Source: Methanosarcina barkeri str. Wiesmoor
Lineage (GTDB): Archaea; Halobacteriota; Methanosarcinia; Methanosarcinales; Methanosarcinaceae
Reading direction: 5' to 3'
NCBI RefSeq assembly: GCF_000969985.1
Contig: NZ_CP009526.1
Coordinates: 1,674,001 to 1,738,000, forward strand
DNA: 64,000 bases
Under the pieces are notes generated by a model. The model did no database searches and had not been told where the DNA came from. It saw only the letters and a program-made list of their open reading frames with translations. A program made the position numbers and the translations under genes. Below, piece by piece: positions 23,291 to 42,828 of the stretch. How positions within the stretch are numbered: position 1 is the stretch's first letter; each line of letters starts with the position of its first letter.

Positions 23291-23369
23291 ATCTATCACT
23301 TTAAAAAATGGTCTCCAAAAATTCAAAGGAAGGTGCAATGTAACCTTCAATTTAATTATCCTGATTCTT

Positions 23370-23810
23370 TGTGTACCCTCCAAAACAGTAATAATTCCTT
23401 TATGGGACAGTAATTGTAGACACAGTACTATAACGACTCTTTCCAGAAGACATAGTAGTCTCAATATTTGTCAGCAGAAACGCAACAAGAGTACACTATT
23501 TCTAAGTGTATTCTTGTTGTCATTCCTTTTCACCCCGTGATTTAACTCCAGAAACAGGATTAAGTAAACCTTGAATTTATTCAAAGTTAACTTAATTAAG
23601 CCGCTGGACATTTAGAGTTCAAATTCGTTTTTCTGAGAGGTTTGAACTCCATAATTTAATACTAACGCACTCTATATAAAATACAAAGTTTTTAGCCAAA
23701 TCATTAAACTATCAAATCAAATGTTTAACCTGTGATTTCATTTTTCAACGATAATATTTTATATGACAAACCGTTTGGTATTCTGAATATAGGTTATACT
23801 CAAAAGTGAA
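23370..23810. repeat. Dispersed ~0.45-kb leader repeat, copy A
   Basis: This intergenic DNA aligns by eye over most of its length with 25230-25700 and 45010-45480, and in part with 40440-40640. Conserved parts include a hairpin (arms 23483-23497 and 23505-23519) within a tiny minus-strand ORF, an inverted motif GAGTTCAAA (23615-23623) / TTTGAACTC (23641-23649), and a TATATAAA box (23673-23680). In minus-strand reading, box, operator and tiny ORF are in promoter order upstream of the beta-helix gene. Confidence 0.7.
23461..23523 (-). CDS. Tiny conserved ORF (20 residues), copy A
   Basis: ATG at 23521-23523 begins MTTRIHLEIV followed by YSCCVSADKY and a TGA. A strong GGGGTGA site lies 6-7 nt upstream. 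Copies at 25357-25419 and 45099-45179 keep the site, the start and the cores HLEIV and SCC, although several substitutions change residues. It may be a leader peptide for the beta-helix operon or a by-product of repeat DNA. There is no evidence of translation beyond the ribosome-binding site. Confidence 0.35.
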   Translation of the reverse strand: MTTRIHLEIVYSCCVSADKY

Positions 23811-25169: not shown

Positions 25170-26034
25170 TAATGTATTATCTGATCACTGTACACATCTT
25201 TAGCTCCTTCTGCATAAAGCTTCACCAGTTTCCGATCATAGAACTTTTTGTTTACTCGCCAAAACAGTACTTTCTCATGGAACAGTAATTGTAGACACAG
25301 ATTGTAGACACAGTATAGCGACTCTCTCGCGACTCTATCCAAAAGACATAGCGATCTCAATATTTACCAGCAGAAATACAACAAGAGTTCACTATTTCTA
25401 AGTGTTCTCTTGTTGTCATTTCTTTTCACCCCGAGATTTAACTCCAGAAACAGTATTAAGTAAACCTTAAATTTTTTCAAAGCTAACTTAATTAAGTCTC
25501 TGGACATTTGGATTTCAAATTGGTTTTTCAGATATTTGAACTCCATAATTTAATACTAACACACTCTATATAAAATACAAAGTTTTTAGCCAGATCATTA
25601 AACTATCAAATTAGATGTTTAATCTCTAATTTTATTTTTCAGCAGTAATACTTAATATGGAAAATCGTTTGGTATCTTGGATATAAGTTATACCGTGTGT
25701 GAATTTTGAGCTGTTTCGGTTTTTTAAACTCCGTTTTACTTTTAAACATTTCAGATGTATTTACTCTATATTATATTCCTTCTATAATTTTGAGGAACAG
25801 CTTTTGCAGATTCATTTCCTCTTCTTCGAACATGGATACCGTACCACCTGCCTTCTTGACAGCTTTTGCAATTTCTGTACGGAGCTTCATTTTGGTATGG
25901 ATGTATAGAACTTCATTCCGAACTTCAAGAGCCTGTACCCCCTCCACATTTCTTACGATTTCTGCAGTTTCAGAGATGGGAATATCCTGAACCTCAAGCA
26001 AATAATTCACACCTTCCTTTGCTCTTACAATATC
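25170..26034. repeat. Segmental duplication, copy B (leader repeat plus 3' end of ABC ATPase)
   Basis: These ~865 bp align by eye with 44949-45824. The segment contains the leader repeat with tiny ORF, a degenerate inverted motif (right half TTTGAACTCCA at 25535-25545), the TATATAAAA box (25567-25575) and the last ~90 codons of the ATPase gene. Because only copy B contains the full ATPase gene, B is probably the source and the copy at 45 kb is truncated. Confidence 0.75.
25357..25419 (-). CDS. Tiny conserved ORF (20 residues), copy B
   Basis: ATG at 25417-25419 begins MTTREHLEIV and continues NSCCISAGKY to a TGA. GGGGTGA precedes it at the same spacing as in copy A. The hairpin arms (25379-25393 and 25401-25415) lie within the ORF. 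No larger gene directly follows on the minus strand. Confidence 0.3.
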   Translation of the reverse strand: MTTREHLEIVNSCCISAGKY

Positions 26035-26919
26035 TCGCAAATCCTCCACAGACCCTACTGCCAGAAGTTTTCCTCTTGCAATTATTGCTATGCGGTCGCA
26101 GATCTCTTCAACTTCTTCCATAGAATGCGAACTCAGAAAAACGGTAACTCCTTTACTTCGGTTCAGGTCTTTTATAAGGTCCCTCATCATCTGAGCGCCA
26201 AGAGGGTCAATACCACTTGTTGGCTCGTCAAGGAAAAGGACTGAGGGTTCGTTGATCAAAGCCTGGGCAAGCCCAAAACGCTTTCGCATGCCTGTGGAAA
26301 AACCGCCTGTTTTCTGGTCAATGGCACGGGTAAGACCTACAGTTTCAAGTAAATTTACAATCCTTTTTTCCCGAACATCGGGTTCGATATTATAGAGCTT
26401 TGCATAAAAACGCAGGTTCTGCCTTGCAGTGAGATTATCATAAAAACCGGCAGGTTCGGGAAGGACTCCTGTCTGTTCTCTTATATTTATTACCTCACGG
26501 ATGATATCGAAACCTGCAACCTTTCCGCTTCCTTCGCTTGGCTCAAGCAAACCAATAAGCATTTTCATAGTTGTGGTCTTGCCAGCTCCGTTAGGACCCA
26601 CAAAACCGAAGACCTCTCCTTTTCTCACCTGCAGATTTAGGTTATCCACTGCGCGAATTTGGTTTTCCTTTCCAAAAAATTTACTCAAATGAATAGTTTC
26701 TATTGCAAATTCACCTGTTTTATGTACAATCCCGCTTTGCCCTAATTCAGTGCTCATTGATTCCATACCTGTTGATTCCATACCTGTTGATTCCATACCT
26801 GTTGATTCCATACCTGTTGATTCTATGCCTATTGATTCCATACCCGCTACTCTCATTCCTGCCGATTTGCTTATTGATTCCATGTCTATTGATTCCATAT
26901 TCATTGATTCCATATTCAC
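25771..26919 (-). CDS. ABC transporter ATPase with repetitive N-terminal extension
   Basis: The ATPase core is of the CcmA/NatA type that pairs with ABC-2 permeases. Walker A is GPNGAGKT (108-115), the signature is FSTGMRKR (about 207-214) and Walker B is VLFLDEPTSG (about 227-236), followed by the SSHSMEEVEEICD switch. The first 60 residues are an unusual Met-rich tract of GMEST repeats. The start at 26917-26919 overlaps the stop of the NEW3 protein gene by 4 bp (ATGA), supporting coupling. MSTELG at 26757 would give a normal-length protein. The likely permeases are the ABC-2 proteins at 31-33 and 41-43 kb, which lack an adjacent ATPase. Confidence 0.9.
   Translation of the reverse strand: MNMESMNMESIDMESISKSAGMRVAGMESIGIESTGMESTGMESTGMESTGMESMSTELGQSGIVHKTGEFAIETIHLSKFFGKENQIRAVDNLNLQVRKGEVFGFVGPNGAGKTTTMKMLIGLLEPSEGSGKVAGFDIIREVINIREQTGVLPEPAGFYDNLTARQNLRFYAKLYNIEPDVREKRIVNLLETVGLTRAIDQKTGGFSTGMRKRFGLAQALINEPSVLFLDEPTSGIDPLGAQMMRDLIKDLNRSKGVTVFLSSHSMEEVEEICDRIAIIARGKLLAVGSVEDLRDIVRAKEGVNYLLEVQDIPISETAEIVRNVEGVQALEVRNEVLYIHTKMKLRTEIAKAVKKAGGTVSMFEEEEMNLQKLFLKIIEGI
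26755..26856 (-). repeat. 15-bp coding minisatellite in the ATPase N-terminus
   Basis: Minus-strand reading gives consecutive GMEST-type pentapeptides from 15-bp units, perfect in the middle copies and degenerating outward. MES-type triplets continue to 26919. Every unit contains an in-frame ATG, so gain or loss of units keeps the frame and adds or removes potential start codons. Confidence 0.8.
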
Positions 26920-28484
26920 CGCCTTCCGAATTTACGTACTACAAAAACAAGCACAATGATTGCAAAGCCCAGAAGAGCTATGCCAAGAAGCCCGCTACTT
27001 GATGATTTTTCAATATTCACCTTGATACTTTTCTCAGAGCTCACAATATCGTCACTCTTTGCCCTGATGAAAATTTCCTTAACTCCAGAACCTGCATTGG
27101 CGTTTGCAGTAATCTGCACAGGTATGGTTTTGGACTCTCCTGCTTCCAGTTCTTCTATCGTTCCAAAGCCCTGGATCTGACTTGTGATTCCGGTTACTTC
27201 GTTAATTTCAAGAGTAACATCTTCAAGAGGATCATTTCTTCTATTCTCTACTTTAACCCTGACTTCAGATGAGCCGCCAGGATTCAATGTTAATTCAGTA
27301 GGGGTTGAATCAACTTTAAGCAGTTCTGCATTTTCGAGATCATTATTGATATTTATTTCAAGCTGCCTAGAAACAGTCCGATCTCCACTTACTGCTGCAA
27401 CTGTGATTGGATAAAGTCCACTTGTAGCATTCTGGAAGGGCTTGACCTTAACAGTGAAAAACTGTTCTTCACCTGCAGCAAGCATAACGGAAGAAAGCCT
27501 TCCGTCTTCGTCATCGTCAGTGACAAATTCCGTGTTCCAGCCTTCAGGCTGGCTCAAAACTTTAAGATTCAGTTTAAGTGGCTGATCATACCTGCTTCTC
27601 AAGGAAACTGCAAATTCTGCAGTCTTTTCAGGCCTAATTGCAAGTCCAACAATGCTGGAATTAAACTCTACGTATGCACTCAAATCCTCATTCTTTGCCA
27701 TCTCAGGATTTATTGTTACACTTAGAGGCAAGAGTACACTCTGATTGCTTTTTTCAGGACATGCTGCCACTAAAATTTCATAATCTCCTCTGGTTGCATT
27801 GATTGGAGGATTTACGGTAACACTAAATTGCTGACTTCCTTCTCCGGGGACTCCTAACCTGGTAATCCTGGCTCCATCCGTTGAAAGCAAGTTAACTCCC
27901 CATTTTTTGGGTTTTGAAACAAGATAAATCTGAAAATTTGCCCTACTTTTATATTTGTTTTCTATAGTAGCCCCAAAACTGACAGGAATTCCAGGATGGG
28001 TTTTTTTTCCAGGAATATCAGAATAAATTTCCAGGTTAGACATTGCATTCCTGTCAACCGTTACTGTAAATTCTTGATACATCTTATCATAATTTCTGAT
28101 ACTTTCTCCATAAGGTCGTAAACCTATTTTTACAGGATATGATCCATCCTTTGCATTTTCAGGAACTCTTACCTTAAGAGTCAATTCCTGTTCATCAGCT
28201 TCTTCGGGTAGAGTAATCTGGCTTACCTGAGTGCCATCTGCATAGATACCTGCAGTCCAGTTTTCGGGGACTTTCTCTATGAAAAATGTAACTGATGTGC
28301 TTTCAGAAGTATTGTATCCCTTTTCTACGGTAAAGCTGAACTCCACCAGGTCTCCAGGCTTTGCAACCTTGCCACTGATTTCGTTTAAGACTGCAAGATT
28401 GGAAAAGTCTGCTCTGGCCGGAAAGGGCATGAGAGAAAATAATATGAGTAGTACAAGGAGGAATTTCGCTTTATTTTCAGGCAC
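26916..28484 (-). CDS. Secreted NEW3-domain (COG1470-type) membrane-anchored protein
   Basis: The 522-residue protein has a signal peptide (FLLVLLILFSLMPFPARA). Four or five immunoglobulin-like repeats of the NEW3 type follow, with motifs such as GDLVEFSFTVEKGYN, GSYPVKIGLRPYG, ATRGDYEILVAACPE, ATSGLYPITVAAVSGD and LNPGGSSEVRVKVENR. The C-terminus is one transmembrane helix (GLLGIALLGFAIIVLVFVV) and RKFGRR. GTG at 28482-28484 follows AAGGAT. It overlaps the ATPase gene by 4 bp. In archaea such proteins often accompany ABC-2 transporters, probably as an external adaptor. Confidence 0.85.
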   Translation of the reverse strand: MPENKAKFLLVLLILFSLMPFPARADFSNLAVLNEISGKVAKPGDLVEFSFTVEKGYNTSESTSVTFFIEKVPENWTAGIYADGTQVSQITLPEEADEQELTLKVRVPENAKDGSYPVKIGLRPYGESIRNYDKMYQEFTVTVDRNAMSNLEIYSDIPGKKTHPGIPVSFGATIENKYKSRANFQIYLVSKPKKWGVNLLSTDGARITRLGVPGEGSQQFSVTVNPPINATRGDYEILVAACPEKSNQSVLLPLSVTINPEMAKNEDLSAYVEFNSSIVGLAIRPEKTAEFAVSLRSRYDQPLKLNLKVLSQPEGWNTEFVTDDDEDGRLSSVMLAAGEEQFFTVKVKPFQNATSGLYPITVAAVSGDRTVSRQLEININNDLENAELLKVDSTPTELTLNPGGSSEVRVKVENRRNDPLEDVTLEINEVTGITSQIQGFGTIEELEAGESKTIPVQITANANAGSGVKEIFIRAKSDDIVSSEKSIKVNIEKSSSSGLLGIALLGFAIIVLVFVVRKFGRR

Positions 28485-28909: not shown

Positions 28910-28937
28910 ACCTCTCGGTAAACAAAATTTGAGAGGT
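28910..28937 (+). promoter_or_regulatory. Hairpin covering the ribosome-binding site of the PPC-like gene
   Basis: ACCTCTC (28910-28916) pairs exactly with GAGAGGT (28931-28937), with a 14-nt loop. The right arm is the Shine-Dalgarno site (AGAGGTG) for the ATG at 28948. In the folded state the site would be hidden, which would allow translational control. Confidence 0.45.
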
Positions 28938-28947
28938 GTTAGCTAAA

Positions 28948-29367
28948 ATGAACATAAAAGCTAGTTTAATGATAGCGTTCATAGCGTGTGTCATGCTTGT
29001 GGGTGTTGCGGCAGCAAATCAAGAAAATCATGAAGCAGGAGATACATGGGGAAGAGCAGCTCTTTTCAAATTAGGCCCTGGGTACAACTCAGTTAGTGGA
29101 TCTTTAGGCGGACTAGATGTTGCTGATTACTGGCGCGAAAGTAACGCTGCTTCTAGTGTAAATGTCAAGTTGTACCTAGATGGAAGTTCACTTGCACGTG
29201 GTGCAGTAGCAGAGATGTACGAAGGCAATTATCCACATCCCTTTATGCAGCGTGTAAGTAGTGGTAATAACGACTGCCCTGATACTTACCTGAATCACGC
29301 CCCAGTATACGTTGTTATGACTCCAAAGGGCATTGGTGACTATACTTTTACTGTACGAAGGTATTGA
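28948..29367 (+). CDS. Small secreted PPC-like protein upstream of the propeller array
   Basis: The 139-residue protein has a signal peptide (SLMIAFIACVMLVGVAAA). Its beta-rich mature domain contains VSGSLGGLDVADYWR and ends YTFTVRRY, resembling a PPC domain (turn with DYW and a final strand). It has a single cysteine near the end and no catalytic motif. ATG at 28948 follows AGAGGTG with 9-nt spacing, and an in-frame start four codons upstream would precede that site's use. A strong terminator follows, so it is probably expressed at a higher level than the propeller genes behind it. Its function is unknown. Confidence 0.65.
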   Translation: MNIKASLMIAFIACVMLVGVAAANQENHEAGDTWGRAALFKLGPGYNSVSGSLGGLDVADYWRESNAASSVNVKLYLDGSSLARGAVAEMYEGNYPHPFMQRVSSGNNDCPDTYLNHAPVYVVMTPKGIGDYTFTVRRY

Positions 29368-29383
29368 GAGTTAAGATAACTTT

Positions 29384-29421
29384 CCATTCTGGTATTCGCA
29401 CCAGAATGGTCAATTTTTTTT
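29384..29421 (+). terminator. Strong hairpin terminator after the PPC-like gene
   Basis: CCATTCTGG (29384-29392) and CCAGAATGG (29401-29409) form a perfect 9-bp stem with an 8-nt loop, followed by TCAA and a run of T. A related hairpin with the same core lies at 32962-32985. Confidence 0.75.
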
Positions 29422-29463: not shown

Positions 29464-31137
29464 ATGTTAAAAACAAATATAATAATTATATTTTTATTAT
29501 TATTTGCTACAAATATAGCATCAGCAAACTCGACATCGGAAGATCTAAGTCTTAATGTCACACAGATTGATGAAATTCTCCAGATAGAAGATGGATTCGT
29601 AGTAACATCAACAGAATGGAGTCCTGATGGACAGTATTTGCTTGTAACCTGTTCCAAAATGAATTCACCTTTAAATTATATCGTTAAGCATTACTTATTA
29701 GATACGAATTCTCACACTTTCGGAGAAATAAATTATGGAATTAATGGGTCTGATACCAACGGAATATTGCAAGCAAAATGGACCCCATCAGGTGACAAGA
29801 TATATTTCGGAGTTTCAAGGATTGAAGAAACAAATTCTGGTCATTGTTATATCATTTGCAATCCTGATGGCACGAATTTGAGGTGTATTGGGACCAATTA
29901 TACTGATCTTTCATACATAATAAAGAATCTTGGGAGTATTGGTTTTCAGAGGAATCTTAACTGGAATCAAGATTCCAATAAAATCGTATTTGAATGGGAA
30001 AAACCAGGAAATCACTCTCCTGGAGTATATATAGCAGATGGAAAGGGGACAATTATCAGCGAACTTCTATCAGCAACGTATCCACAGCCTGCCTTGTACG
30101 ACTCTGATAAAGTCTTTATTGTTAAAGATGAAGGAACTGTAGTGCTTGCCAATGATGAAGGCGATTTGATTCAGACGTTTCAACCTGAGAACAAAGATGA
30201 ACGATACTGCGCTTTTTCACTTAGCCCTGACAGAAAAAAAATCATGTTTGCAGCAGGGTCATCAGACAGCTACAATTTACAGACATACGTCTCTAATATT
30301 GATGGTTCGAATTTAAAAGGAAATATCTCTTATAATGAAAATCTCTGGGCAAACGAATCCTGGCAGCCAAACGGTTCTCTTCTTCTGGTAAATCAGAACA
30401 GAAATCTGTATATTGTTGAAGGAGACGAAAATAATAAGCGTCTTTTATATAAAGGCAATGCCAGCGAATCCCAGTGGTTCCCAGATGGGAAGAAAATTCT
30501 TTTTGTTGAAAATGGAAACAAGCTGTATTCAATCGATATTGATGGAACCAATATAACTTTTATCACTAATTTCGGACAGACTTCATCCAATACATGGAAA
30601 TATTTTGATGGAGGTCAGCACTTTTCAATAAGTCCATCAGGAAAAATCATAGCTTTTATGTCTGCTTTTGACTCAGCCACTGGAAAAGCTATTGAAAACT
30701 ATAATATTGTTAATCTTAATATTGCTGCTCCTTTGTTCATTGTTAATTCCGAGGGCTCGAATCTCACTCAGGTGACGCCTGCAGTAAAGGGAAGATACGA
30801 TACATGCATAAACTGGAGCCCTGATGGAAAGCAATTCACAATCGGGTCCACTATATATATGGATCCAGGGTGGAACCATGTGAATAACTCTCTAGTAATA
30901 TTGGATTCTGAAAACTCTTCGTCAATCTGGAAGAGGTTGCCTGTAAAGGAAATTATCAAGAGCGAAGAATCTGGTACCGTTGATAAAGTCCAGATCAATG
31001 AACCAGATTCCATCAACACGTCGTCGCAAGTTGTCGAGAATAAGAAAACAAGCAGTCAATCTCCTTCCTTTACGTTTTTGCAATTGTTTATCTGTCTAAT
31101 GGGGATCTGGTTATTGCATAAAAGTAAGGAGTTGTGA
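29464..31137 (+). CDS. Membrane-anchored TolB/PD40-type beta-propeller protein, paralogue 1
   Basis: The 557-residue protein has a signal peptide (IIIIFLLLFATNIASA). Propeller repeats follow with WSPDGQYLLV, WTPSGDKIYF, LSPDRKKIMFA, WFPDGKKILFV, ISPSGKIIAFM and WSPDGKQFTI, the PD40/TolB pattern. A Ser/Asn-rich stalk leads to one transmembrane helix (FLQLFICLMGIWLLH) and KSKEL. GGTGA lies 6 nt before the ATG. It is followed 4 bp later by an ABC-2 permease. From about 29570 to 30550 its DNA is almost identical to paralogue 2, while the flanks differ, pointing to gene conversion. It probably displays a binding propeller outside the cell. Confidence 0.8.
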   Translation: MLKTNIIIIFLLLFATNIASANSTSEDLSLNVTQIDEILQIEDGFVVTSTEWSPDGQYLLVTCSKMNSPLNYIVKHYLLDTNSHTFGEINYGINGSDTNGILQAKWTPSGDKIYFGVSRIEETNSGHCYIICNPDGTNLRCIGTNYTDLSYIIKNLGSIGFQRNLNWNQDSNKIVFEWEKPGNHSPGVYIADGKGTIISELLSATYPQPALYDSDKVFIVKDEGTVVLANDEGDLIQTFQPENKDERYCAFSLSPDRKKIMFAAGSSDSYNLQTYVSNIDGSNLKGNISYNENLWANESWQPNGSLLLVNQNRNLYIVEGDENNKRLLYKGNASESQWFPDGKKILFVENGNKLYSIDIDGTNITFITNFGQTSSNTWKYFDGGQHFSISPSGKIIAFMSAFDSATGKAIENYNIVNLNIAAPLFIVNSEGSNLTQVTPAVKGRYDTCINWSPDGKQFTIGSTIYMDPGWNHVNNSLVILDSENSSSIWKRLPVKEIIKSEESGTVDKVQINEPDSINTSSQVVENKKTSSQSPSFTFLQLFICLMGIWLLHKSKEL

Positions 31138-31141
31138 TTCA

Positions 31142-32002
31142 GTGAATAAAGACAGCGTTTTAACAATTGCGCAAAAAGAATTCTCAGACAAATTGTACGA
31201 ACCCAGTTTTATTATACTGCTAGCTATCTTTACGGGCACTATACTTGCATATTTGCAAAATCGTGCCGGTGGAGATAATTTTGGGGACGTTGTCCAGGTT
31301 ATTGCAGTATTTTTTCCGTTAATAGGTATAGCCCTTGGGTATGACGGGATAATTAAAGAAAAAAATAGCAAAAGCCTCAGTGTTTTATTGACGCAACCGG
31401 TTTTCAGGGATAATATTATTACAGGCAAATTTCTGGGGATTTCAATGACCCTTGCTCTTGTAGTATTTTTTTCCCTGACAATAATTGCAGCTTCGGATTT
31501 TGTTATTTCCGGAAAAATCGCTGAGTTTGATTCTCTCTTGCGACTGTTTATTTTCGGGATATTTACCTTTCTTTATCTTTTACTTTTTGCCACATTTGGG
31601 CTTTTTACTTCAGTCTGGTGTAAAACAGAAATTGAATCCCTTACCTTTGGGGTTTTTGTCTGGATCAATATGTGTTTTGCCCTTGGGCCCACTATAATAA
31701 CGCTGGCATCTTTCGCATCAGGTCAAACACTGTTTGATATGACAAAAGAATTTGCTTCTACAGCATCCTTATTTTATAATATCTCACCTTTGCATCATTT
31801 TGCTGAGGTAATTGTTGGAACCCAAGATTTGAGTTTTTATGGAGGGTTCAATGTTCAGTCTGAAGTACATGGATTTCTGGATACTCAGTATACATTACCT
31901 TACCTGCTTGGATATTACTGGCAAAACGTGATAATTTTGTTAGTTCTCCCATTTCTGTTTCTGGCAGCTTCATACATTTCATTTTTGAGAGATGATATTT
32001 AA
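31142..32002 (+). CDS. ABC-2 type transporter permease
   Basis: The 286-residue protein has six predicted transmembrane helices. It shows the NosY/ABC-2 signature in the first cytoplasmic loop (LIGIALGYDGIIKEKNSKSLSVLL, then TQPVFRDNIITGKFLG). The GTG start follows AAGGAG and lies 4 bp after the propeller gene, so the genes form one operon. There is no ATPase gene nearby on this strand, and the closest is at 25771. The protein is probably half of a heterodimer with the next permease. Confidence 0.88.
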   Translation: MNKDSVLTIAQKEFSDKLYEPSFIILLAIFTGTILAYLQNRAGGDNFGDVVQVIAVFFPLIGIALGYDGIIKEKNSKSLSVLLTQPVFRDNIITGKFLGISMTLALVVFFSLTIIAASDFVISGKIAEFDSLLRLFIFGIFTFLYLLLFATFGLFTSVWCKTEIESLTFGVFVWINMCFALGPTIITLASFASGQTLFDMTKEFASTASLFYNISPLHHFAEVIVGTQDLSFYGGFNVQSEVHGFLDTQYTLPYLLGYYWQNVIILLVLPFLFLAASYISFLRDDI

Positions 32003-32014
32003 GGAGGGAAAAAT

Positions 32015-32899
32015 GTGGAAAATATCTCAAATGTCGAAGTAATAGCCCAAAAAGAGTTTACTGACCATCTAAAAAGTCCTGTATTCCTTTTATTTACAGC
32101 CACCTTCATGCTGGTTGTCATTACCTGGTCGTATGTACAGGGGACAGAAGTTGAATATACTTTGAATGTTCTTGGCAGTCCTGATTTGATGAGTGGGTTT
32201 GAAGGGGTAGCAGAGGTTGTCGGCCGTTTTGCACCAGTTATGGGTATAGTACTGGGTTTTGATGCAATCGTCAAAGAAATAAAATCCAGTTCTATGAATG
32301 TTTTATTGACACATCCCGTGTTCAGGGATAATATAATTCTTGGAAAAATCCTGGGATCAGGCTTGTGTATCTTGCTGGTGCTCTTCTTTTCCATTAATCT
32401 GGCAACTGGAGTCATGCTTATGGCTTCAGGAGTTCCAGTTACGATACAGCAAATCACAAGGATTGAGATATTCGTGATTTTGACTTTTTTTTATTCTTTA
32501 ATCTTCCTTGCAATCTCTATAATGATTTCGACAATAGCAAAAAAATCAAATAATTCCCTTATGTTCAACCTTATTTTCTGGCTTATCATAACGATATTGC
32601 TTGCCAAATTAGTCTTTGTTGTAAGTTATGCTTTTTCTGAAGATCTCAATACAGCAAATGGTCAGACTCAAATCATAAAGAACTTCTTACCTGATTATCA
32701 TTTTACTTCAACTGCTGTGGGAATCAAAAGTACTGGTACAGGAATGACTTCTGGAATAGGTGGAATATTTGACACACGCTATACATTGGGAGCCTGGGCA
32801 TGGGAGTTCTGGCCCAACCTGGCATATCTTTTCGTGCTACCCTTCATCTTGCTTATAGGCTCAGTGCTTGCCTTTTTGAAAAAGGACATAACATACTGA
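32015..32899 (+). CDS. ABC-2 type transporter permease, second subunit
   Basis: The 294-residue paralogue of the preceding permease has VMGIVLGFDAIVKEIKSSSMNVLL and THPVFRDNIILGKILGSG, and six hydrophobic segments ending FILLIGSVLAFLKKDI. GTG at 32015 follows AAGGAGGG with ideal spacing. It lies 12 bp after the first permease. Confidence 0.88.
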   Translation: MENISNVEVIAQKEFTDHLKSPVFLLFTATFMLVVITWSYVQGTEVEYTLNVLGSPDLMSGFEGVAEVVGRFAPVMGIVLGFDAIVKEIKSSSMNVLLTHPVFRDNIILGKILGSGLCILLVLFFSINLATGVMLMASGVPVTIQQITRIEIFVILTFFYSLIFLAISIMISTIAKKSNNSLMFNLIFWLIITILLAKLVFVVSYAFSEDLNTANGQTQIIKNFLPDYHFTSTAVGIKSTGTGMTSGIGGIFDTRYTLGAWAWEFWPNLAYLFVLPFILLIGSVLAFLKKDITY

Positions 32900-32961
32900 A
32901 GGAAAGTGTTTCCAAGGAAGCAGATTTTGGTTTAAGAGACATCAGTTTAAAGATTGTTTTT

Positions 32962-32995
32962 CATTCTGATTCAAATACCAGAATGAGTTATTTTT
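32962..32995 (+). terminator. Hairpin with T-rich tail after the permease pair
   Basis: CATTCTG (32962-32968) and CAGAATG (32979-32985) form a 7-bp stem followed by agttatttttc. The core matches the terminator at 29384, so this intergenic segment seems duplicated along with the propeller gene that follows. Confidence 0.55.
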
Positions 32996-33053
32996 CAACT
33001 TTTATTTTTTCAATTTTTGAAGTTAGCTTCCAAAGCTTAGGATGGAGATTCAA

Positions 33054-34709
33054 ATGTTAAGAAATGTTTTCACAATATTTATCTTATTTTCATTGTTACT
33101 TGCTACAAATATAGCATCAGCAAACTCAACATCGGAAGATCTAAGTTTTAATGTTACACCGCTTAATAAAATTCTCCAGATAGAAGATGGATTCGTAGTA
33201 ACATCAACAGAATGGAGTCCTGATGGACAGTATTTGCTTGTAACCTGTTCCAAAATGAATTCACCTTTAAATTATATCGTTAAGCATTACTTATTAGATA
33301 CGAATTCTCACACTTTCGGAGAAATAAATTATGGAATTAATGGGTCTGATACCAACGGAATATTGCAAGCAAAATGGACCCCATCAGGTGACAAGATATA
33401 TTTCGGAGTTTCAAGGATTGAAGAAACAAATTCTGGTCATTGTTATATCATTTGCAATCCTGATGGCACGAATTTGAGGTGTATTGGGACCAATTATACT
33501 GATCTTTCATACATAATAAAGAATCTTGGGAGTATTGGTTTTCAGAGGAATCTTAACTGGAATCAAGATTCCAATAAAATCGTATTTGAATGGGAAAAAC
33601 CAGGAAATCACTCTCCTGGAGTATATATAGCAGATGGAAAGGGGACAATTATCAGCGAACTTCTATCAGCAACGTATCCACAGCCTGCCTTGTACGACTC
33701 TGATAAAGTCTTTATTGTTAAAGATGAAGGAACTGTAGTGCTTGCCAATGATGAAGGCGATTTGATTCAGACGTTTCAACCTGAGAACAAAGATGAACGA
33801 TACTGCGCTTTTTCACTTAGCCCTAACAGAAAAAAAATCATGTTTGCAGTAGGGTCATCAGACAGCTACAATTTACAGACATACGTCTCTAATATTGATG
33901 GTTCGAATTTAAAAGGAAATATCTCTTATAATGAAAATCTCTGGGCAAACGAGTCCTGGCAGCCAAACGGTTCTCTTCTTCTGGTAAATCAGAACAGAAA
34001 TCTGTATATTGTTGAAGGAGACGAAAATAATAAGCGTCTTTTATATAAAGGCAATGCAAGCGAATCCCAGTGGTTCCCAGATGGGAAGAAAATACTGTTC
34101 GTTGAAAATGGAAACAAGCTGTATTCAATCGATATTGATGGAACCAATCTATCATTTATCACCAGTTTCGGACCTACTTACTCCTATACATGGAAATATT
34201 TCAACGAAGGTCAGCATTTTTCAATAAGTCCATCCGGGAACACTATAGCTTTTATGTCTGCATTTGACTCATCCACTGGAAAAATGATCGAAGACAATAA
34301 CATTTTTAATATTGAGATTGCCGCTCCTTTGTTTATTATAAATTCCAATGGTTCTAATCTAACTCAAGTGACACCTGCAGTAAAAGGAATATTTGATACA
34401 TGCATAAACTGGAGCCCCGATGGTAAGCAATTCACTATCGGATCCACGAAATATAGCAATGGTCATGGGAATAGTTCTCTGGTAAAATTGGATACTAAAA
34501 ACTCTTCGTCAACCTGGAAGAGTTTGCCTGTAAAGAGTGAAGAATCTGGCATCGTTGATAAAGTCCAGATCAATGAACCATATCCCAAAAATACATCACA
34601 GATTGCTGAGAGTCAAGAAATAATCAAGCAATCCCCTTCCTTTATGTTTATACAACCGTTTGTTTGCATAATAGGAATCTGGTTGTTACATAAAAGCAGA
34701 GACATGTGA
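33054..34709 (+). CDS. Membrane-anchored TolB/PD40-type propeller protein, paralogue 2
   Basis: The 551-residue protein has a signal peptide (LRNVFTIFILFSLLLATNIASA) and the same PD40 repeats as paralogue 1. Residues ~30-360 are nearly identical to it. The later part has diverged (NLSFITSFGPTYSY, KGIFDTCINWSPDGKQF). The end is a transmembrane helix (IQPFVCIIGIWLLH) and KSRDM. The ATG at 33054 has GGAGA upstream; an in-frame ATG at 33042 lies before that site. It is followed by a permease stub in place of a full permease. Confidence 0.8.
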   Translation: MLRNVFTIFILFSLLLATNIASANSTSEDLSFNVTPLNKILQIEDGFVVTSTEWSPDGQYLLVTCSKMNSPLNYIVKHYLLDTNSHTFGEINYGINGSDTNGILQAKWTPSGDKIYFGVSRIEETNSGHCYIICNPDGTNLRCIGTNYTDLSYIIKNLGSIGFQRNLNWNQDSNKIVFEWEKPGNHSPGVYIADGKGTIISELLSATYPQPALYDSDKVFIVKDEGTVVLANDEGDLIQTFQPENKDERYCAFSLSPNRKKIMFAVGSSDSYNLQTYVSNIDGSNLKGNISYNENLWANESWQPNGSLLLVNQNRNLYIVEGDENNKRLLYKGNASESQWFPDGKKILFVENGNKLYSIDIDGTNLSFITSFGPTYSYTWKYFNEGQHFSISPSGNTIAFMSAFDSSTGKMIEDNNIFNIEIAAPLFIINSNGSNLTQVTPAVKGIFDTCINWSPDGKQFTIGSTKYSNGHGNSSLVKLDTKNSSSTWKSLPVKSEESGIVDKVQINEPYPKNTSQIAESQEIIKQSPSFMFIQPFVCIIGIWLLHKSRDM

Positions 34710-34713
34710 TATT

Positions 34714-34782
34714 GTGAACAAAGACAGAGTTCTAATACTGGCGCAAAAGGAATTTTCGGACAAACGATATGAACAGATATGA
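34714..34782 (+). pseudogene. Stub of an ABC-2 permease gene
   Basis: GTG at 34714 begins VNKDRVLILAQKEFSDKRYE, closely matching the first 20 residues of the permease at 31142, then stops at TGA 34780-34782. The rest of the gene is absent. It marks where a propeller-permease unit was duplicated and the permeases deleted. Confidence 0.75.
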
Positions 34783-34846
34783 GCAGAATATAGGTTCATT
34801 TTTCATGATTTTAGGCAAACTTTCTAAATATATGGAGGAAATTCAA

Positions 34847-36544
34847 ATGTTAAGAAACATCCTCACAATATTTATCCTATTTTCATTGTTACTTGTTACA
34901 AATATAGCATCAGCAAACTCGACATCTGAAGATATAAATTTTAATGTTACATCGCTTGATAAAATTCTCCAGACAGAAGGTGGTTTTGTAGTAAGTTCAA
35001 CAGCATGGAGTCCTGATGGGCATTACTTACTGGTAACCTGTTCCAAATTGATTTCTCGTTCAAATAGTATTTACAAACATTATCTTTTAGACACAAATTC
35101 CCATACTTTTGGGGAAATCAATTATGGAATTAAAGAATTTAGTAGTTATTCCGTATCTAAGGTAGAATGGTCTCCTTCTGGAGATAGAATATATTTCCGA
35201 ATCTTAAAGTTTGCTGGCCCTACAGATTCTGGTAGTTGTTTTATCGTATGTAATCCAGATGGTACGAATTTAAGGGGTCTAGGGACCAATTATACAAGTC
35301 TTTCAGATGTGATAGAGAATCTTGGAAGTATGGGTTTTCAGAATAATCTGAAATGGAGTCCCGATTCCAGTAAAATTGCGTTTGAATGGCAAAAACCTGA
35401 GAATATTTTTAGTGGGGTATATATTTCAAATGGAAATGGAACAAATACTCATGAAATTCGATCAGAAGCTTCACAGCCTGTCTGGTATGACTCTACCAAA
35501 GTTTTTATTCTCTCCCATAAGGGAATTGTAGAGCTTATCGATGATAATGGTGACTCAATTCAGACATTCCATCCAGAAAATAAAAACGAACAGTACTGTG
35601 TATTTTCAGTCAGTCCTGATAAGAGAAAAATAATATTCGTTTCAGGATTACCAGGTAGCCACAATTTACAAACTTATATCTCTAACACTGACGGTTCGAA
35701 ATTGAGAGGAAACGTTTCGCATTATGGTGATACTGATGAGCATATCTTAACAAAAGAATATTGGCAACCAAACGGTTCACTTCTGCTAGTAAATCAGGAC
35801 GGGAGTCTCTATATTGTAGAAGGAAATGAAAACAACAAGCGTCTTTTGTATGAAGGCAACGCTACCAATCCCCAATGGTTCCCTGATGGTAAGAAAATAT
35901 TATTCGTTACAAATAAAAACAAGCTGTATTCAATCAATGTTGACGGAACCAACCTAACATTTATCACTAATTTTGGACTGACCACTTCTTATTTCTGGAG
36001 CCTTTATAAAGAAGCCAAACAATTTTCGATAAGTCCATCTGGAAATATAATAGCTTTTACTTCTGCTCTTTATCCTGATACCGGTAAAATTATTGAATCT
36101 GAGCCTGATCCCTCAACGCGTCAAAATATTGCTGTTCCCCTATTCATTGTTAATTCGGATGGTTCCAACCTCACTCAGGTGACACCTACAATAAAGGGCC
36201 TATATGAGATGTTTGGAGAATGGAGTCCAAATGGGAAGCAGTTTACTACTGACCCAATACAATTATCCGATTATCCTCAGCAGGGTGATGAGGGTAGTTG
36301 TTTAATTGAATTGGAAGCTCGTAACTCTTCTTCTATGTGGACGAATATGCCTGTAAAGAAAATTATAGGAAGAGAGGAACCTGCTACTGTTGGTAAAGCT
36401 CAAAATAGTGAGTCCAACTCTACAAACACATCGCAGGTTACTGAGAATAAAGAAACAAGTAAACAATCTCCTTCCTTTATATTTTTCGAATTATTTGTCT
36501 GTCTAATGGGAGTCTGGCTGCTGCATAAATCCCGGGATACATGA
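34847..36544 (+). CDS. Membrane-anchored TolB/PD40-type propeller protein, paralogue 3
   Basis: The 565-residue protein has the same layout as paralogues 1 and 2 but is clearly diverged throughout (SSTAWSPDGHYLLV, VEWSPSGDRIYFR, VSPDKRKIIFVS, WFPDGKKILFVT, GEWSPNGKQFTT). It has a transmembrane helix near the C-terminus (FFELFVCLMGVWLLH). The ATG at 34847 follows GGAGGA with 7-nt spacing. The longer open frame from 34769 starts inside the permease stub and is rejected. A second permease stub follows. Confidence 0.8.
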   Translation: MLRNILTIFILFSLLLVTNIASANSTSEDINFNVTSLDKILQTEGGFVVSSTAWSPDGHYLLVTCSKLISRSNSIYKHYLLDTNSHTFGEINYGIKEFSSYSVSKVEWSPSGDRIYFRILKFAGPTDSGSCFIVCNPDGTNLRGLGTNYTSLSDVIENLGSMGFQNNLKWSPDSSKIAFEWQKPENIFSGVYISNGNGTNTHEIRSEASQPVWYDSTKVFILSHKGIVELIDDNGDSIQTFHPENKNEQYCVFSVSPDKRKIIFVSGLPGSHNLQTYISNTDGSKLRGNVSHYGDTDEHILTKEYWQPNGSLLLVNQDGSLYIVEGNENNKRLLYEGNATNPQWFPDGKKILFVTNKNKLYSINVDGTNLTFITNFGLTTSYFWSLYKEAKQFSISPSGNIIAFTSALYPDTGKIIESEPDPSTRQNIAVPLFIVNSDGSNLTQVTPTIKGLYEMFGEWSPNGKQFTTDPIQLSDYPQQGDEGSCLIELEARNSSSMWTNMPVKKIIGREEPATVGKAQNSESNSTNTSQVTENKETSKQSPSFIFFELFVCLMGVWLLHKSRDT

Positions 36545-36548
36545 TATT

Positions 36549-36656
36549 GTGGACAAAGACAGAGTTTTAACAATTGCGCAAAAAGAATTCTCAGACAAAC
36601 GATATGAGCAGAATATAATAGGTTCATTTTTTCATGATTTTAGGCAAACTTTCTAA
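36549..36656 (+). pseudogene. Second stub of an ABC-2 permease gene
   Basis: GTG at 36549 begins VDKDRVLTIAQKEFSDKRYE and runs 35 codons to a TAA, matching the permease start and then unrelated sequence (FFHDFRQTF). The same tail sequence follows the first stub, so both arose by one deletion that was then duplicated. Confidence 0.75.
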
Positions 36657-36674
36657 ATTTTGGGGGTAATTCAA

Positions 36675-38399
36675 ATGTTAAGAAATATTCTCACAATATT
36701 TATCTTATTTTCATTGTTACTTGTTACAAATATAGCATCAGCAAACTCAACATCGGAAGATCTAAGTTTTAATGTTACACCGCTTAATAAAATTCTCCAG
36801 ATAGAAAAAGGATTCATGACAATTTCAACAGAATGGAGTCCTGATGGGCAATATCTGCTTGTAACTTATTCTAAATGGGTTCCTCCTTCAACTAATATCG
36901 TTAGACATTATTTATTAGATACAAATTCCCGTACATTTGGAGAAATTGATTATGGAGTTCATGGCCTGGATACCGATGGCATATTGCAGGCAAAGTGGAT
37001 TCCTTCTGGTGACAAGATATGCTTTGAAGTTTCAGGATATGGACCAACAGGGGCTGGTAATTGTTATATCTTTTGCAACCCAGACGGTACGAATTTAAGG
37101 GGTGTAGGGACTAACTATGCCGATCTTTCAAAGATATTAGAGAACCTTGGGGATATTGGTTTTCAAAGGAATCTGAAATGGAGTCCTGATTCTAGTAAAA
37201 TTGTATTTGAATGGCAAAAACCCGAAAATGCTTCTACTGAAGTATATGTAGCAAACAGAAATGGCACAAATGCCCGTGAACTTTCTTCAGCTACATATCC
37301 ACAGCCTGCCTGGTATGGCTCTGATAAAATCTTTATTGTTAAAGATGAAGGAAATGTAGAGCTTCTCAGTGAGGGCGGTGATTTAATTCAGACTTTCCAA
37401 CCGGAGAATAAAGATGAAAAATACTGTGTTTTTTCACTCAGCCCTGATAGGAAAAAAATAATATTCGCTTCAGGGTTACAGGGCAGCTTCGATTCACAGA
37501 CTTATATCTCTAATACCGATGGTTCGAATTTAAAAGGAAACATTTCTTATTATGATGGAGACAATCCAGAAGATACCAACCTCTTGACAAAAGAATATTG
37601 GCAGCCAAATGGTTCTCTTTTGCTGGTAAATCAGAACAGGAATCTGTATATTGTAGAAGGAGACGAAAACAATAAGCGTCTTTTGTATGAAGGTAATGCC
37701 AGTGAACCCCAATGGTTCCCTGATGGGAAGAAAATATTATTCGTTGAAAACAAAAACAAGCTGTATTCAATTGATATTGACGGGACCAATTTGTCCTTTA
37801 TCACTAATTTCGGACCGACACCAGCTCATTCCTGGTATAATTCAGACAAAATTGATCGTTTTTCAATTTATTCAATAAGTCCATCCAGTGATTTTATTGT
37901 ATTTGCTTCTGCCCTTAACCCAGATACCGGAAAATTTTATGAAAATGAAACTGATAAAATTCTTGAAAGTGCGAATGACTCTAGATATTCAAGCATTGCT
38001 GCCCCTTTGTTTATTGTTAATTGCAATGGTTCTAGTCTCACTCAGGTGACACCCACAACAAGGGGTAGATTCGATATGCTCCGAAGGTGGAGACCTGATG
38101 GAAAACAATTTACGATTGAGTCTTATTACCTTTATAAAACTGATTGGGAAGACTTTCTGGTCGATTTAAACAATCAAAACTCTTCTTCTATGTGGACTAA
38201 TATAACTGTAACGAAAATGTTCGGGAGCAAAAAATCTGGCACCTTTGATAAAGTCCAAATCGATGAACCAGATTTCACCAACACATCACAGGTTACTGAG
38301 AATAAAGAAACAAGCAAGCAATCACCTTCCTTTTCGTTTTTACAGCTGTTTGTTTGCATAATAGGAATCTGGTTGCTGCATAAAGCTCGGGAGCAGTAA
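36675..38399 (+). CDS. Membrane-anchored TolB/PD40-type propeller protein, paralogue 4
   Basis: The 574-residue protein is the fourth member of the tandem array. Signal peptide and first 40 residues are close to paralogue 2, and the remainder is intermediate between 2 and 3. PD40 motifs include TEWSPDGQYLLV, KWIPSGDKICFE, LKWSPDSSKIVFE, LSPDRKKIIFAS and WFPDGKKILFV. It has a C-terminal helix (FLQLFVCIIGIWLLH). ATG at 36675 follows GGGGGT. No permease or stub follows it. Confidence 0.8.
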   Translation: MLRNILTIFILFSLLLVTNIASANSTSEDLSFNVTPLNKILQIEKGFMTISTEWSPDGQYLLVTYSKWVPPSTNIVRHYLLDTNSRTFGEIDYGVHGLDTDGILQAKWIPSGDKICFEVSGYGPTGAGNCYIFCNPDGTNLRGVGTNYADLSKILENLGDIGFQRNLKWSPDSSKIVFEWQKPENASTEVYVANRNGTNARELSSATYPQPAWYGSDKIFIVKDEGNVELLSEGGDLIQTFQPENKDEKYCVFSLSPDRKKIIFASGLQGSFDSQTYISNTDGSNLKGNISYYDGDNPEDTNLLTKEYWQPNGSLLLVNQNRNLYIVEGDENNKRLLYEGNASEPQWFPDGKKILFVENKNKLYSIDIDGTNLSFITNFGPTPAHSWYNSDKIDRFSIYSISPSSDFIVFASALNPDTGKFYENETDKILESANDSRYSSIAAPLFIVNCNGSSLTQVTPTTRGRFDMLRRWRPDGKQFTIESYYLYKTDWEDFLVDLNNQNSSSMWTNITVTKMFGSKKSGTFDKVQIDEPDFTNTSQVTENKETSKQSPSFSFLQLFVCIIGIWLLHKAREQ

Positions 38400-38535: not shown

Positions 38536-39315
38536 TTACTTGTATTTTTCAATAAAGTTTTCATAAGAAGGATTTACTCTATAAATTATATTTCTTCCTT
38601 TTTTTGTTTCCTGAACTATCCCTATGTCTTTAAGGTTCTTAATGTACCAGCTAATAGTAGCCCTCGAAACTCCAATTTCCTGTGCAAGAGCTATATTTGT
38701 AGTACACTGACCATTTCTTATTTCTAAGACTATTTTTTTACTTGTTACGTTTTGAAGGGCAGAGATGATTATTTTTTCTTCGTTATCATAACTGAAATTG
38801 TTTTCGAAATATCTTACTTTTCCTCCATCTTTATAGGCTTCGATTTTGTTTTGAGCTTTAAGATTTTTTATATGATATTTGACTGCTCCCCGATTTAAAT
38901 TTAATTTATTTACAATATCACTAATGTATGTTCCAGGTCTAGTTTTAATATAGTCATAAACTTTAGATTGGCTGGAGCTACCAGGTTCATTTGCTTGCCC
39001 TTTAATCTTGAATCCTAGTACCACGAAAATAAGCTTTGCAAGGTGCAGCAATACGTCTATTATTGATAAAATTTGCATTGCAGCCAGCCAGAGCAAAAAC
39101 TGCCAGTATACTGTAAAGTCTCTAACTTGTGTTACTTCTTCTCCAGCTACGGACACCCCAAATTCATCGTTTGGAGCAGGACTTACAACATACTCCGTAG
39201 CCTCAGCTGTTACTATTAAATACAAAGATAAAAAGCAAAGGAGACAGAGTCTCCTATAATTAATGCAATGCGCCACCAAATTTGTAGCTCTGTTTTCCAC
39301 TAACCGATTCCCCAT
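38536..39315 (-). CDS. Membrane-tethered double winged-helix regulator, copy 3
   Basis: This 259-residue paralogue of copies 1 and 2 has a signal/anchor (CLLCFLSLYLIVTAEA), TEYVVSPAPNDEFG, the hydrophobic hairpin (YWQFLLWLAAMQILSIIDVLLH), and two winged helices with YISDIVNKLNLNRGAVKYHI and NIALAQEIGVSRATISWYI. Its second recognition helix equals that of copy 1 (GVSRATISWY), while the first differs. Its first 40 residues are nearly identical to copy 2. The start is uncertain for the same reason as in copy 2. The PPC-like partner upstream is decayed. Confidence 0.7.
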   Translation of the reverse strand: MGNRLVENRATNLVAHCINYRRLCLLCFLSLYLIVTAEATEYVVSPAPNDEFGVSVAGEEVTQVRDFTVYWQFLLWLAAMQILSIIDVLLHLAKLIFVVLGFKIKGQANEPGSSSQSKVYDYIKTRPGTYISDIVNKLNLNRGAVKYHIKNLKAQNKIEAYKDGGKVRYFENNFSYDNEEKIIISALQNVTSKKIVLEIRNGQCTTNIALAQEIGVSRATISWYIKNLKDIGIVQETKKGRNIIYRVNPSYENFIEKYK

Positions 39316-39758
39316 AAACTTTAAACTTTCAGGTTCCTTGTTGCACATATCCCTGGGAGGGATTTATATTAATGCGTATCCTACCATTTGTGCTTCCATC
39401 AGAGCTATCGTGGTAAGTTCCGAGTTTGCTTCCAGAGGGGGTATAAACACTAAGAGTCAGGGAATCACTTGTATCTCCCCATTTCAAATTTACTTCGAGA
39501 TAATTCACTCCTGAACCTATTTTACATTGTGAGTTATAGTATGTCCCTGGCTTATTGATTGGGTTGACCTTAGAAAGAAATGGAATTCTTTGTATCAAAA
39601 GAGTTTTCTATCCAGGGACTAACAATGTAATCTTTTCCATTAGAATCTAAAATAACTTCATTATTCGAGTTTCCTGAGTATCATTTTTCGGCAGAAACCG
39701 CAGGAATAGCCATCAATCCTATAATAACGCATAAAATCAACACTTTATAGACTTTCAT
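39290..39758 (-). pseudogene. Decayed PPC-like secreted protein gene
   Basis: The ATG at 39756-39758 begins MKVYKVLILCVIIGLMAIP, like the intact copy at 16995. Reading is then broken by a stop after SAEK and by frameshifts. The core VGSGVNYLEV..WGDTSDSLTLSVYTPSGSK is well preserved, and a stop replaces Trp before KFKVYGES. The region before the start matches the intact gene's promoter. The partner regulator (copy 3) remains intact. Confidence 0.8.
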
Positions 39759-41023: not shown

Positions 41024-41908
41024 TTACAGAGTAATGTCTTTCCTGAGAAATGTGATGAAAGCTATTATAAACAATACAACCGGAGTCGTTATCAGCACTA
41101 CAATATTCATCCAGAATTCTGTTAAGCACTGAGTGAGAGTATATTTAGTATCAAAAATCCCTCCAATGATTGGTTCTACGTTAACTCCCATAAAACTCAA
41201 ATCAGTTCTGCCAATTACAGCCTCTCCATAGTGATGTATTGGTGATATATTCAAAAGTTGTGTGATCAATATACCTTCATTCGATGTTTGACCTGTCAAT
41301 ATGGCAACAACTGTCTTAAGAATTGCACCAAATAGTATGCAGATAAAAATCCATATAATAATGTTGCTGATTAGTGAATCAGTGGAGTTTTTTACTATCG
41401 TTGAGACGAGAATTGCAATTCCCAAAAATGTCACCGCATAGAAAAATGTAAGAATGGTGAACACAGCTATTCTGATTAGTTCCGTATATCCGATCTCGAC
41501 TCCATAGAAGATCAAGAGTGTTCCTACAGATACAAAAACCGAAAATATAATTATAGCAGCCATCAATAACGCTGATCCAATTAATTTCCCTGCAAGAATA
41601 TTATCCCTGAATATTGGATGAGTTAATAACACATTCAGTGATCCGGATTTCTGTTCTCTGACAACTGCATCGAATCCCAAAGCTATTCCAACCAATGGGG
41701 TAAATTGGGATATCATTCTGACATGAATACTACTCAGGAGAACTGAATTCTCGCCATACACCATGGAACCGATCATCATGGAACCAAGCATATAGGTAGA
41801 GGCAAATACTATTACTGTATATGTCGCAAGCAACACCAAAAATCCGGCATCTTGAAGATGGTCAGCAGCCTCTTTTTGAGCAACCACAAAAACATTATTA
41901 TTTTTCAT
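41024..41908 (-). CDS. ABC-2 type transporter permease (mirror cluster)
   Basis: The 294-residue protein has six hydrophobic segments. It shows the family signature LVGIALGFDAVVREQKSGSLNVLL, then THPIFRDNILAGKLIGSAL. It is related to, but clearly different from, the permeases at 31-33 kb. It is the last gene of a propeller-permease-permease operon on the minus strand, 5 bp after the preceding permease. Confidence 0.88.
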   Translation of the reverse strand: MKNNNVFVVAQKEAADHLQDAGFLVLLATYTVIVFASTYMLGSMMIGSMVYGENSVLLSSIHVRMISQFTPLVGIALGFDAVVREQKSGSLNVLLTHPIFRDNILAGKLIGSALLMAAIIIFSVFVSVGTLLIFYGVEIGYTELIRIAVFTILTFFYAVTFLGIAILVSTIVKNSTDSLISNIIIWIFICILFGAILKTVVAILTGQTSNEGILITQLLNISPIHHYGEAVIGRTDLSFMGVNVEPIIGGIFDTKYTLTQCLTEFWMNIVVLITTPVVLFIIAFITFLRKDITL

Positions 41909-41913
41909 TCGAG

Positions 41914-42819: not shown

Positions 42820-42828
42820 AATTGACCC

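Follow-up and report, generated by a model that had tools for sequence, protein, structure and literature searches.

Four tail-anchored propeller genes beside one ABC-2 permease pair in Methanosarcina barkeri: a candidate transporter module with exchangeable partners

How did four related surface-protein genes come to share a locus with a single pair of transporter permeases, and could all four serve that pair? The question is raised by a gene array of Methanosarcina barkeri str. Wiesmoor, analysed here within a stretch of 64,000 nucleotides (G000:C2:1674001-1738000, hereafter the window, whose positions are used below) of a 4.9 Mb genome assembled in 2 contigs. The array, at 29464-38399, encodes four proteins called P1 to P4 and two ATP-binding cassette type 2 (ABC-2) permeases. 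The analysis supports the view that P1-P4 are PD40 propellers of several old lineages, each with a predicted signal peptide and a predicted C-terminal anchor. As to their role, we give even chances to the array being one module of an ABC-2 transporter at the cell surface, with exchangeable, tail-anchored partner subunits.

On the plus strand, starting at 28936, the genes follow in the order small protein, P1, permease 1, permease 2, P2, permease stub, P3, permease stub, P4 (Table 1). The initial annotation had described four intact propellers and one permease pair, and reading of the open reading frames (ORFs) bears this out: the P1, P2, P3 and P4 frames are open over 557, 555, 591 and 579 codons, respectively, and a single permease pair stands within the array. 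The mutual amino acid identity of P1-P4 is 60-87%. The four propellers and both permeases score above the curated cut-offs of PF07676 (20.9 bits) and PF12679 (27.2 bits), respectively. A promoter scan, which used a bacterial consensus on this archaeal host, gave a single plus-strand terminator-like site (29384-29409, upstream of P1) and was not used. A second propeller-permease-permease unit, divergent in sequence, is found on the minus strand at 41024-44436, 2.6 kb past the array, and its propeller matches P1-P4 with 18-26% identity over short stretches. The wider region therefore has two permease pairs.

The array had been thought to grow by unit duplication. Relatives of P4 were searched in 59 genomes (own included), 13 of which gave a match at E 1e-20, and relatives of the permeases in 30 members of the genus (own included), where they were present at E 1e-80 in 7; the four named loci matched by the P4 scan are all Methanosarcina. 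Complete propeller-permease-permease units were found in the window and in 8 fetched loci from 7 genomes, with 1 or 2 units per locus, several relatives being fragmented assemblies and G005 a metagenome-assembled genome (MAG) that is 79% complete. The gene order is kept in the 8 related loci, with propeller-permease gaps of at most 20 bp between matches, and among the 9 loci only the window has four propellers at one place. In the trees, P1 and P2 group with propellers of G002 and G019, and in the 3' part of the gene also with G005_a (lineage A). P3 groups with G004_c93a (lineage C) and P4 with G014, G029_a and G005_b (lineage D), in both gene parts. A single clade of the four window propellers, corresponding to a purely local duplication, was rejected by the approximately unbiased (AU) test (p 4e-4, 3' part; here and below, the groups tested were picked after data inspection). 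P1 and P2 as one clade, corresponding to a local duplication of these two, were not rejected (p 0.31), and in the 3' tree P1, P2 and G019 are poorly resolved relative to each other. Since the lineages of P1/P2, P3 and P4 are distinct and recur in other Methanosarcina-type genomes, local duplication alone did not give rise to the array, and unit duplication as a purely local event is not supported.

The permeases tell of a change of partner. The window pair is sister to the pair of G014 (100/100 support), which stands behind a lineage-D propeller. Grouping it with lineage-A pairs was rejected, with AU p values of 2.6e-53 for G002, 2.6e-5 for G005_a and 3.0e-5 for both, and P1 as a lineage-D propeller matching its permeases was rejected as well (p 2e-7, 3' part). 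Judged from these trees, a permease pair of lineage-D type now stands behind the lineage-A propeller P1 and is re-paired, the lineage switch falling where P1 ends and permease 1 begins (about 31100-31200). Likewise, a lineage-D-type pair stands behind a propeller outside lineage D on contig 94 of G004.

Within the array the lineages have been locally blended. P1 and P2 had been described as nearly identical over about 1 kb with differing flanks, and this was read as partial homogenisation; both points stand. The tract carries 4 differences in 925 bp, its longest exact match is of 656 bp (starting at 29573 in P1 and 33169 in P2), and the sliding identity of about 100% along it gives way to 63-88% per 60-column step in the gene; outside the tract, the genes are 83% identical in the 5' flank and 82% in the 3' flank. 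Synonymous divergence (dS) was estimated by the Nei-Gojobori method with Jukes-Cantor correction, which is rough above 1. It is 0.010 in the tract, against 0.571 downstream and 0.265 upstream, so that protein constraint does not explain the identity. In a GENECONV-like permutation test, the longest P1-P2 run comprised 236 polymorphic sites (P1 29585-30225) and was reached in 0 of 2000 shuffles, the resulting p of 0.0005 being the floor of the test. Synonymous identity between diverged flanks, as found here, characterises ectopic gene conversion.

A second homogenised stretch spans the last bases ahead of the start codon and the signal peptide in P2, P3 and P4. P2 and P4 are 96-97.5% identical in it, against 79% and 69% in the remaining two gene parts, and their run is significant (global p 0.019, permutation). 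P4 and its G014 relative follow the reverse pattern, with 74% in the leader and signal-peptide stretch and 90% in the body. A short P3-P4 run near the 3' end is also significant (global p 0.005, permutation), and no significant run was found in 3 of the 6 window propeller pairs. An independent stretch of 216 identical bp is common to one lineage-A and one lineage-D propeller of G005; it ends at the equivalent of P1 position 30576, about 80 bases beyond the end of the P1/P2 tract. Concerted evolution of the whole genes is not what is seen, the four-copy clade being rejected in the 3' part (AU test above) and P3 and P4 grouping elsewhere.

The stubs indicate how permeases were lost. As the initial annotation had it, P2 and P3 are each followed by a stub with the same tail. 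The beginning of permease 1 recurs after P2 (60 nt, 80%, E 1.5e-9) and after P3 (51 nt, 94%, E 1.4e-16). Taken with their tails, the two stubs are 87% identical over 255 alignment columns; the common tail forms the leader of the propeller that follows and runs on into its signal peptide. Complete units in the related loci support the permease loss that had been proposed, and the stubs are read most simply as deletions from such units. The same stub, tail and leader occur in G004 between the lineage-C propeller and the next one (82-86% over 262-265 columns). A stub common to P3 and its G004 counterpart most simply places the deletion behind lineage C before their split, spread of the stub by conversion being a possible alternative. 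The higher match of the P3 stub to permease 1 (94%, versus 80% for the P2 stub) suggests that the stubs may have been partly overwritten. A third stub after P4 was rejected: when the 86 bases from the P4 stop were aligned to four permease or stub starts, 139, 329, 391 and 1072 of 2000 shuffles each reached the observed alignments.

Part of the content probably came from other species. Compared with G014, dS is 0.25 for P4 and 0.17 and 0.24 for the permeases, versus 0.93 for the NEW3 gene, 0.87 for aIF5B, 1.04 for a hydantoinase gene, 1.55 for PGK and 1.59 for a flavodoxin-domain gene at 46717. Compared with G004, it is 0.26 for P3, versus 0.79 for the ATPase gene, 0.82 for NEW3, 0.88 for aIF5B and 1.81 for PGK. 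This is a comparison on few genes, with five host genes against G014 and four against G004 (six different genes, mcrA being a seventh). For G018, the closest genome by aIF5B (0.52) and PGK (0.54), the ATPase and NEW3 values are 0.81 and 0.92. Values of 0.17-0.26, against 0.79-1.8 in host genes, suggest that P3, P4 and the permeases were imported. The case for exchange between species is good for these genes and weak for P1, whose dS to G002 is 0.49 (aIF5B 0.96 and ATPase 0.84 for the same pair). P4 and the permeases are similarly close to G014, as if they had arrived together; their later parting is what we infer. For the genes of the second unit, dS is 0.13-0.36 against G014 and 0.13-0.51 across G014, G029 and G004. 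Codon bias or slow local rates are alternative causes of low dS. In G002, G014 and G029 the start of aIF5B precedes that of the array by 12-22 kb, and in the window by 21 kb, so the chromosomal place is common and its content differs; we read the mode of exchange as homologous recombination between species at one site.

Are propellers without permeases still in use? The ratio of non-synonymous to synonymous rates (omega) is 0.46 for P3 versus G004, 0.33 for P4 versus G014 and 0.23 for P1 versus G002, with fewer non-synonymous than synonymous changes per site, against equal rates, for P3 (p 3e-7) and P4 (p 6e-12). Both thus remain constrained without permeases of their own, part of the P4 divergence perhaps predating the permease loss. 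As the G004 counterpart of P3 is also followed by a stub, this propeller seems useful without its own permeases. No gene-level positive selection was found, every omega computed being below 1 (highest 0.63, P1 versus P2, first 108 bases). An orphan propeller of the same family lies far from the array (L038:8463-10190, i.e. G000:C2:3800462-3802189). The 18 kb fetched there contain no permeases, and inspection by eye shows no C-terminal anchor; its omega to the G028 relative is 0.19. Its relatives in G028, G001, G016 and G020 contain stops inside the match. The second propeller of G002 (L034:12115-13515) is broken, its middle being missing and an insert carrying a short ORF; the latter resembles DUF4096, a putative transposase family, at 28.0 bits, below the cut-off of 34.3.

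The predicted full-length model of P4 comprises a helix at residues 2-23 (signal peptide), the propeller, a stalk at 500-555 with a predicted local distance difference test (pLDDT) score below 50, and a helix at 554-573. Because the full-length model reached a pLDDT of 64 and gave low template modelling (TM) scores, the P1 propeller domain was refolded alone. Its best VIA match is eIF2A (3wj9, Z 21.4, root-mean-square deviation 3.6, 343 aligned), followed by the designed Cake9 (6tjh, 20.4), human eIF2A (8dys, 20.3) and a centriole protein (9qzc_i, 19.9); eIF3b (16.5-18.6, the 4nox entry, titled nine-bladed, at 17.7) is tied with DPP4 entries (14.8-18.6). eIF2A and Cake9 have nine blades and DPP4 eight. 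A profile search of solved-structure sequences returned nothing at E 0.001. Nine repeat motifs were counted by eye in P4, and the predicted fold of P1-P4 is probably a nine-bladed propeller.

On the full-length P4 model, the mapping of variable positions that the initial annotation had suggested was carried out. Over 18 propellers (five distant orphan genes being left out), mean entropy is 1.11-1.16 in the BC/DA loops versus 0.57-0.58 in the AB/CD turns, loops being named after the general PD40 topology and blade and loop limits taken from the low-confidence full-length model. Four lineage-A sequences (P1, G005_a, G002, G019) were then compared with four of lineage D, leaving out P2 and lineages C and E. 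Forty-one positions are fixed within each lineage yet different between them: 38 in residues 38-499, with the stalk accounting for two and the anchor helix for one. They cluster in P4 residues 379-498, corresponding to blades 8-9 and lying outside the P1/P2 tract, with 31 of 120 sites versus 7 of 342 in the rest of 38-499 (Fisher p 7e-14, for a range picked after data inspection). Without gap positions the counts are 22 of 107 versus 7 of 335, and without both gaps and G005, 23 of 107 versus 18 of 335 (p 5e-6, fixed-different versus fixed-same), omission of G005 lowering the odds ratio from 13.4 to 5.4. Part of this contrast is due to conversion between lineages over the initial two thirds of the gene, of which G005 is an example. 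The diversified ligand binding that had been proposed withstands the refutation test set for it: the lineage-specific positions are neither evenly spread nor confined to the stalk, being concentrated in P4 residues 379-498 and in the BC and DA loops. Binding as such is a conjecture added to this pattern, whose range is post hoc and which conversion shares in producing.

From these elements we propose the following arrangement. As the sequences support, propeller-permease-permease units have recombined by conversion between neighbours, as in the P1/P2 body and in the leader and signal peptide of P2, P3 and P4, and have probably also passed between species, as for P3, P4 and the permeases. P2, P3 and P4 lack permeases of their own, the surviving lineage-D-related pair standing behind P1. 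The pair may work with the ABC ATPase encoded upstream: the ATPase and NEW3 genes, divergent from the array, are its direct neighbours in 6 of the 9 loci, counting the window, and lie no more than about 6 kb away in another 2, the ninth, L032, ending at a contig edge. The C-terminal helix would anchor each propeller outside the cell, where any of the four could dock exchangeably on the one pair, as gene content, the change of partner and the persistence of P3 without permeases lead us to infer. With their different blades 8-9, the propellers may each make contact with something different, be it a ligand, a substrate protein or an adjacent component of the surface; a scaffold common to all, with a single sector that varies, agrees with partners having the same mode of docking and different targets.

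Two other explanations keep substantial weight. It is possible, if rather unlikely, that P2-P4 are leftovers being lost and that P1 with its permeases is the sole working set. P2-P4 do lack full permeases, the second G002 propeller is broken, with its weakly transposase-like insert, and the four differences of the P1/P2 tract look derived in P2; moreover, of the three copies compared along their full length P3 has the highest omega, possibly a sign of relaxed constraint. However, all four frames are open and end in an anchor segment, omega is below 1 for P3 and P4 with the p values given above, and the stub shared by P3 and its G004 counterpart most simply makes the loss older than their split. 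We consider it unlikely that the propellers have an independent function at the surface (adhesion, S-layer contact) and that their permease neighbourhood is regulatory or historical. The constant gene order with short gaps in 8 related loci argues against this, as does the divergent second unit, which also combines a propeller with two permeases; on the other side, six further fetched stretches from six genomes, own included, hold a propeller without permeases, so that propellers may act alone, and the orphan of the same genome is constrained with respect to its G028 relative. Finally, although assemblers probably err most in long identical stretches, it is highly improbable that the P1/P2 near-identity is an assembly artefact, given two copies with 4 differing sites and distinct flanks, an assembly of just 2 contigs and the independent 216-bp stretch in G005 (itself a MAG).

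Besides the P3 ratio and the propellers without permeases, several observations weigh against a transporter with exchangeable, partly imported partners. The dS contrast is gene-dependent: mcrA, at 0.46 to G014 (N-terminal part) and 0.43 to G004, falls between the two groups, and P1 to G019, at 0.64, is near PGK (0.72). In G014 the ATPase copy beside the array is in three fragments, an intact copy lying 6 kb away, and the link of the propellers to permeases and ATPase is itself deduced. The P1 propeller-only model is of moderate confidence (pLDDT 70), and Foldseek matched it to a wide variety of propellers, the TM-score (by query length) reaching at most 0.43 among the matches listed. The loop-versus-turn contrast is also partly expected, since the turns carry the family motif and PD40 loops may vary more anyway.

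A bolder interpretation, for which we see a small chance, is that a common Methanosarcina chromosomal site serves as an exchange point for surface-receptor cassettes, in which one ABC-2 transporter would work with a changing set of tail-anchored, nine-bladed propellers, kept uniform in scaffold by conversion, diverse in blades 8-9 and traded between species. If true, this would perhaps permit substrate switching, or escape from surface-binding viruses or competitors. In any case the locus is a natural experiment, with propellers lasting without their own permeases, a partner-switched pair and a scaffold that is homogenised beside a sector that varies, and it allows the question whether the propeller gives the transporter its specificity to be tested in a genetically tractable methanogen.

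Among neighbouring genes, no Pfam family was found for the small protein directly upstream of the array. Two winged-helix regulators, at 23934-24716 and 38536-39348, flank the region from the ATPase gene to the array and are similar by eye. A gene with DUF4277 and DDE transposase domains (20462-22075) is flanked by genes for an M28 peptidase and a NosD-domain protein. At 60149-62827 is encoded a Roc-COR GTPase with leucine-rich repeats, which was unmatched at E 1e-60 in 3 of the 5 relatives searched, one of them 79% complete.

Table 1. Features of the propeller array and adjoining genes, in window positions.
Feature	Position	Strand	Evidence
ABC ATPase, likely energy source of the permease pair	25771..26919	-	PF00005 102.2 bits; neighbours in relatives
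NEW3/CARDB-domain protein, 4-base overlap with ATPase gene	26916..28484	-	PF10633 79.2 bits; neighbours in relatives
Small protein directly upstream of array; relatives in 5 of 8 related loci	28936..29367	+	ORF; neighbours in relatives
Propeller P1, lineage A; predicted signal peptide, PD40 propeller, stalk, C-terminal transmembrane helix	29464..31137	+	ORF, PF07676 49.8 bits, tree
Conversion tract, P1 copy (4 differences in 925 bp)	29573..30497	+	Sliding identity, permutation, exact match
ABC-2 permease 1, lineage-D unit type	31142..32002	+	PF12679 92.3 bits (1-283/283); tree, AU tests
ABC-2 permease 2, lineage-D unit type	32015..32899	+	PF12679 101.6 bits (3-282/283); tree, AU tests
Propeller P2, lineage A; aligned start ATG 33054	33042..34709	+	ORF, PF07676 48.4 bits, tree
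Second homogenised stretch (leader end and signal peptide), P2 copy; 97.5% to P4 copy	33048..33169	+	
Conversion tract, P2 copy	33169..34093	+	Sliding identity, permutation, exact match
Permease stub after P2, 22 codons and stop	34714..34782	+	Sequence; permease 1 match
Propeller P3, lineage C; aligned start ATG 34847	34769..36544	+	ORF, PF07676 55.9 bits, tree
Second homogenised stretch, P3 copy	34841..34962	+	
Permease stub after P3, 35 codons and stop	36549..36656	+	Sequence; permease 1 match
Propeller P4, lineage D; aligned start ATG 36675	36660..38399	+	ORF, PF07676 49.4 bits, tree
Second homogenised stretch, P4 copy	36669..36790	+	
Sector rich in lineage-specific residues, P4 residues 379-498, blades 8-9	37809..38168	+	
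Winged-helix regulator adjoining array	38536..39348	-	PF13412, PF24266

How does the array compare with what is known? A literature search of titles and abstract beginnings, which is no proof of absence, gave no paper treating the propeller-ABC-2 family or its role. Conversion between paralogues is a process already known; the propeller-ABC-2 family with its re-paired, partly permease-less array is undescribed in the literature searched. The part of PMC6053082 consulted here reports gene conversion and concerted evolution among mtmB, mtmC, mtbB and mtbC paralogues in Methanosarcinales, the same archaeal order. In the trees given there, concerted evolution of the genes is recurrent, whereas in the array only tracts are homogenised and the lineages remain distinct. 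A modelling paper, PMC4898445, takes up gene conversion together with lateral exchange in polyploid archaea, methanogens included.

At the protein level, P1-P4 share PD40 repeats and a signal peptide with TolB/PD40 proteins. They differ in their C-terminal anchor helix and nine repeat motifs, TolB having six blades, and identity with TolB was rejected on scores of 44.3-47.6 bits for TIGR02800, against a curated cut-off of 343.15. The nine-bladed propellers of eIF2A and eIF3b rank high among the structures matched by the P1 model; these are translation factors with 11-13% identity, and a common function is not claimed. A close parallel in organisation is the NosDFY type of system, which has a role in copper-centre maturation. 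In such systems, an ABC-2 permease pair and its ATPase move or extract a substrate, and a partner on the outside, such as NosD in the case of NosFY, presents or receives it. The array resembles this type in its ABC-2 permeases, separate ATPase and extracytoplasmic partner encoded alongside. It is not a NosDFY system itself: the partner gene beside the permeases encodes a PD40 propeller, the nearest NosD-domain gene found (22232-23464) lying beyond the ATPase gene. Thus, in place of one beta-helical NosD, the array offers four tail-anchored propellers as candidate partners, beside two different permeases.

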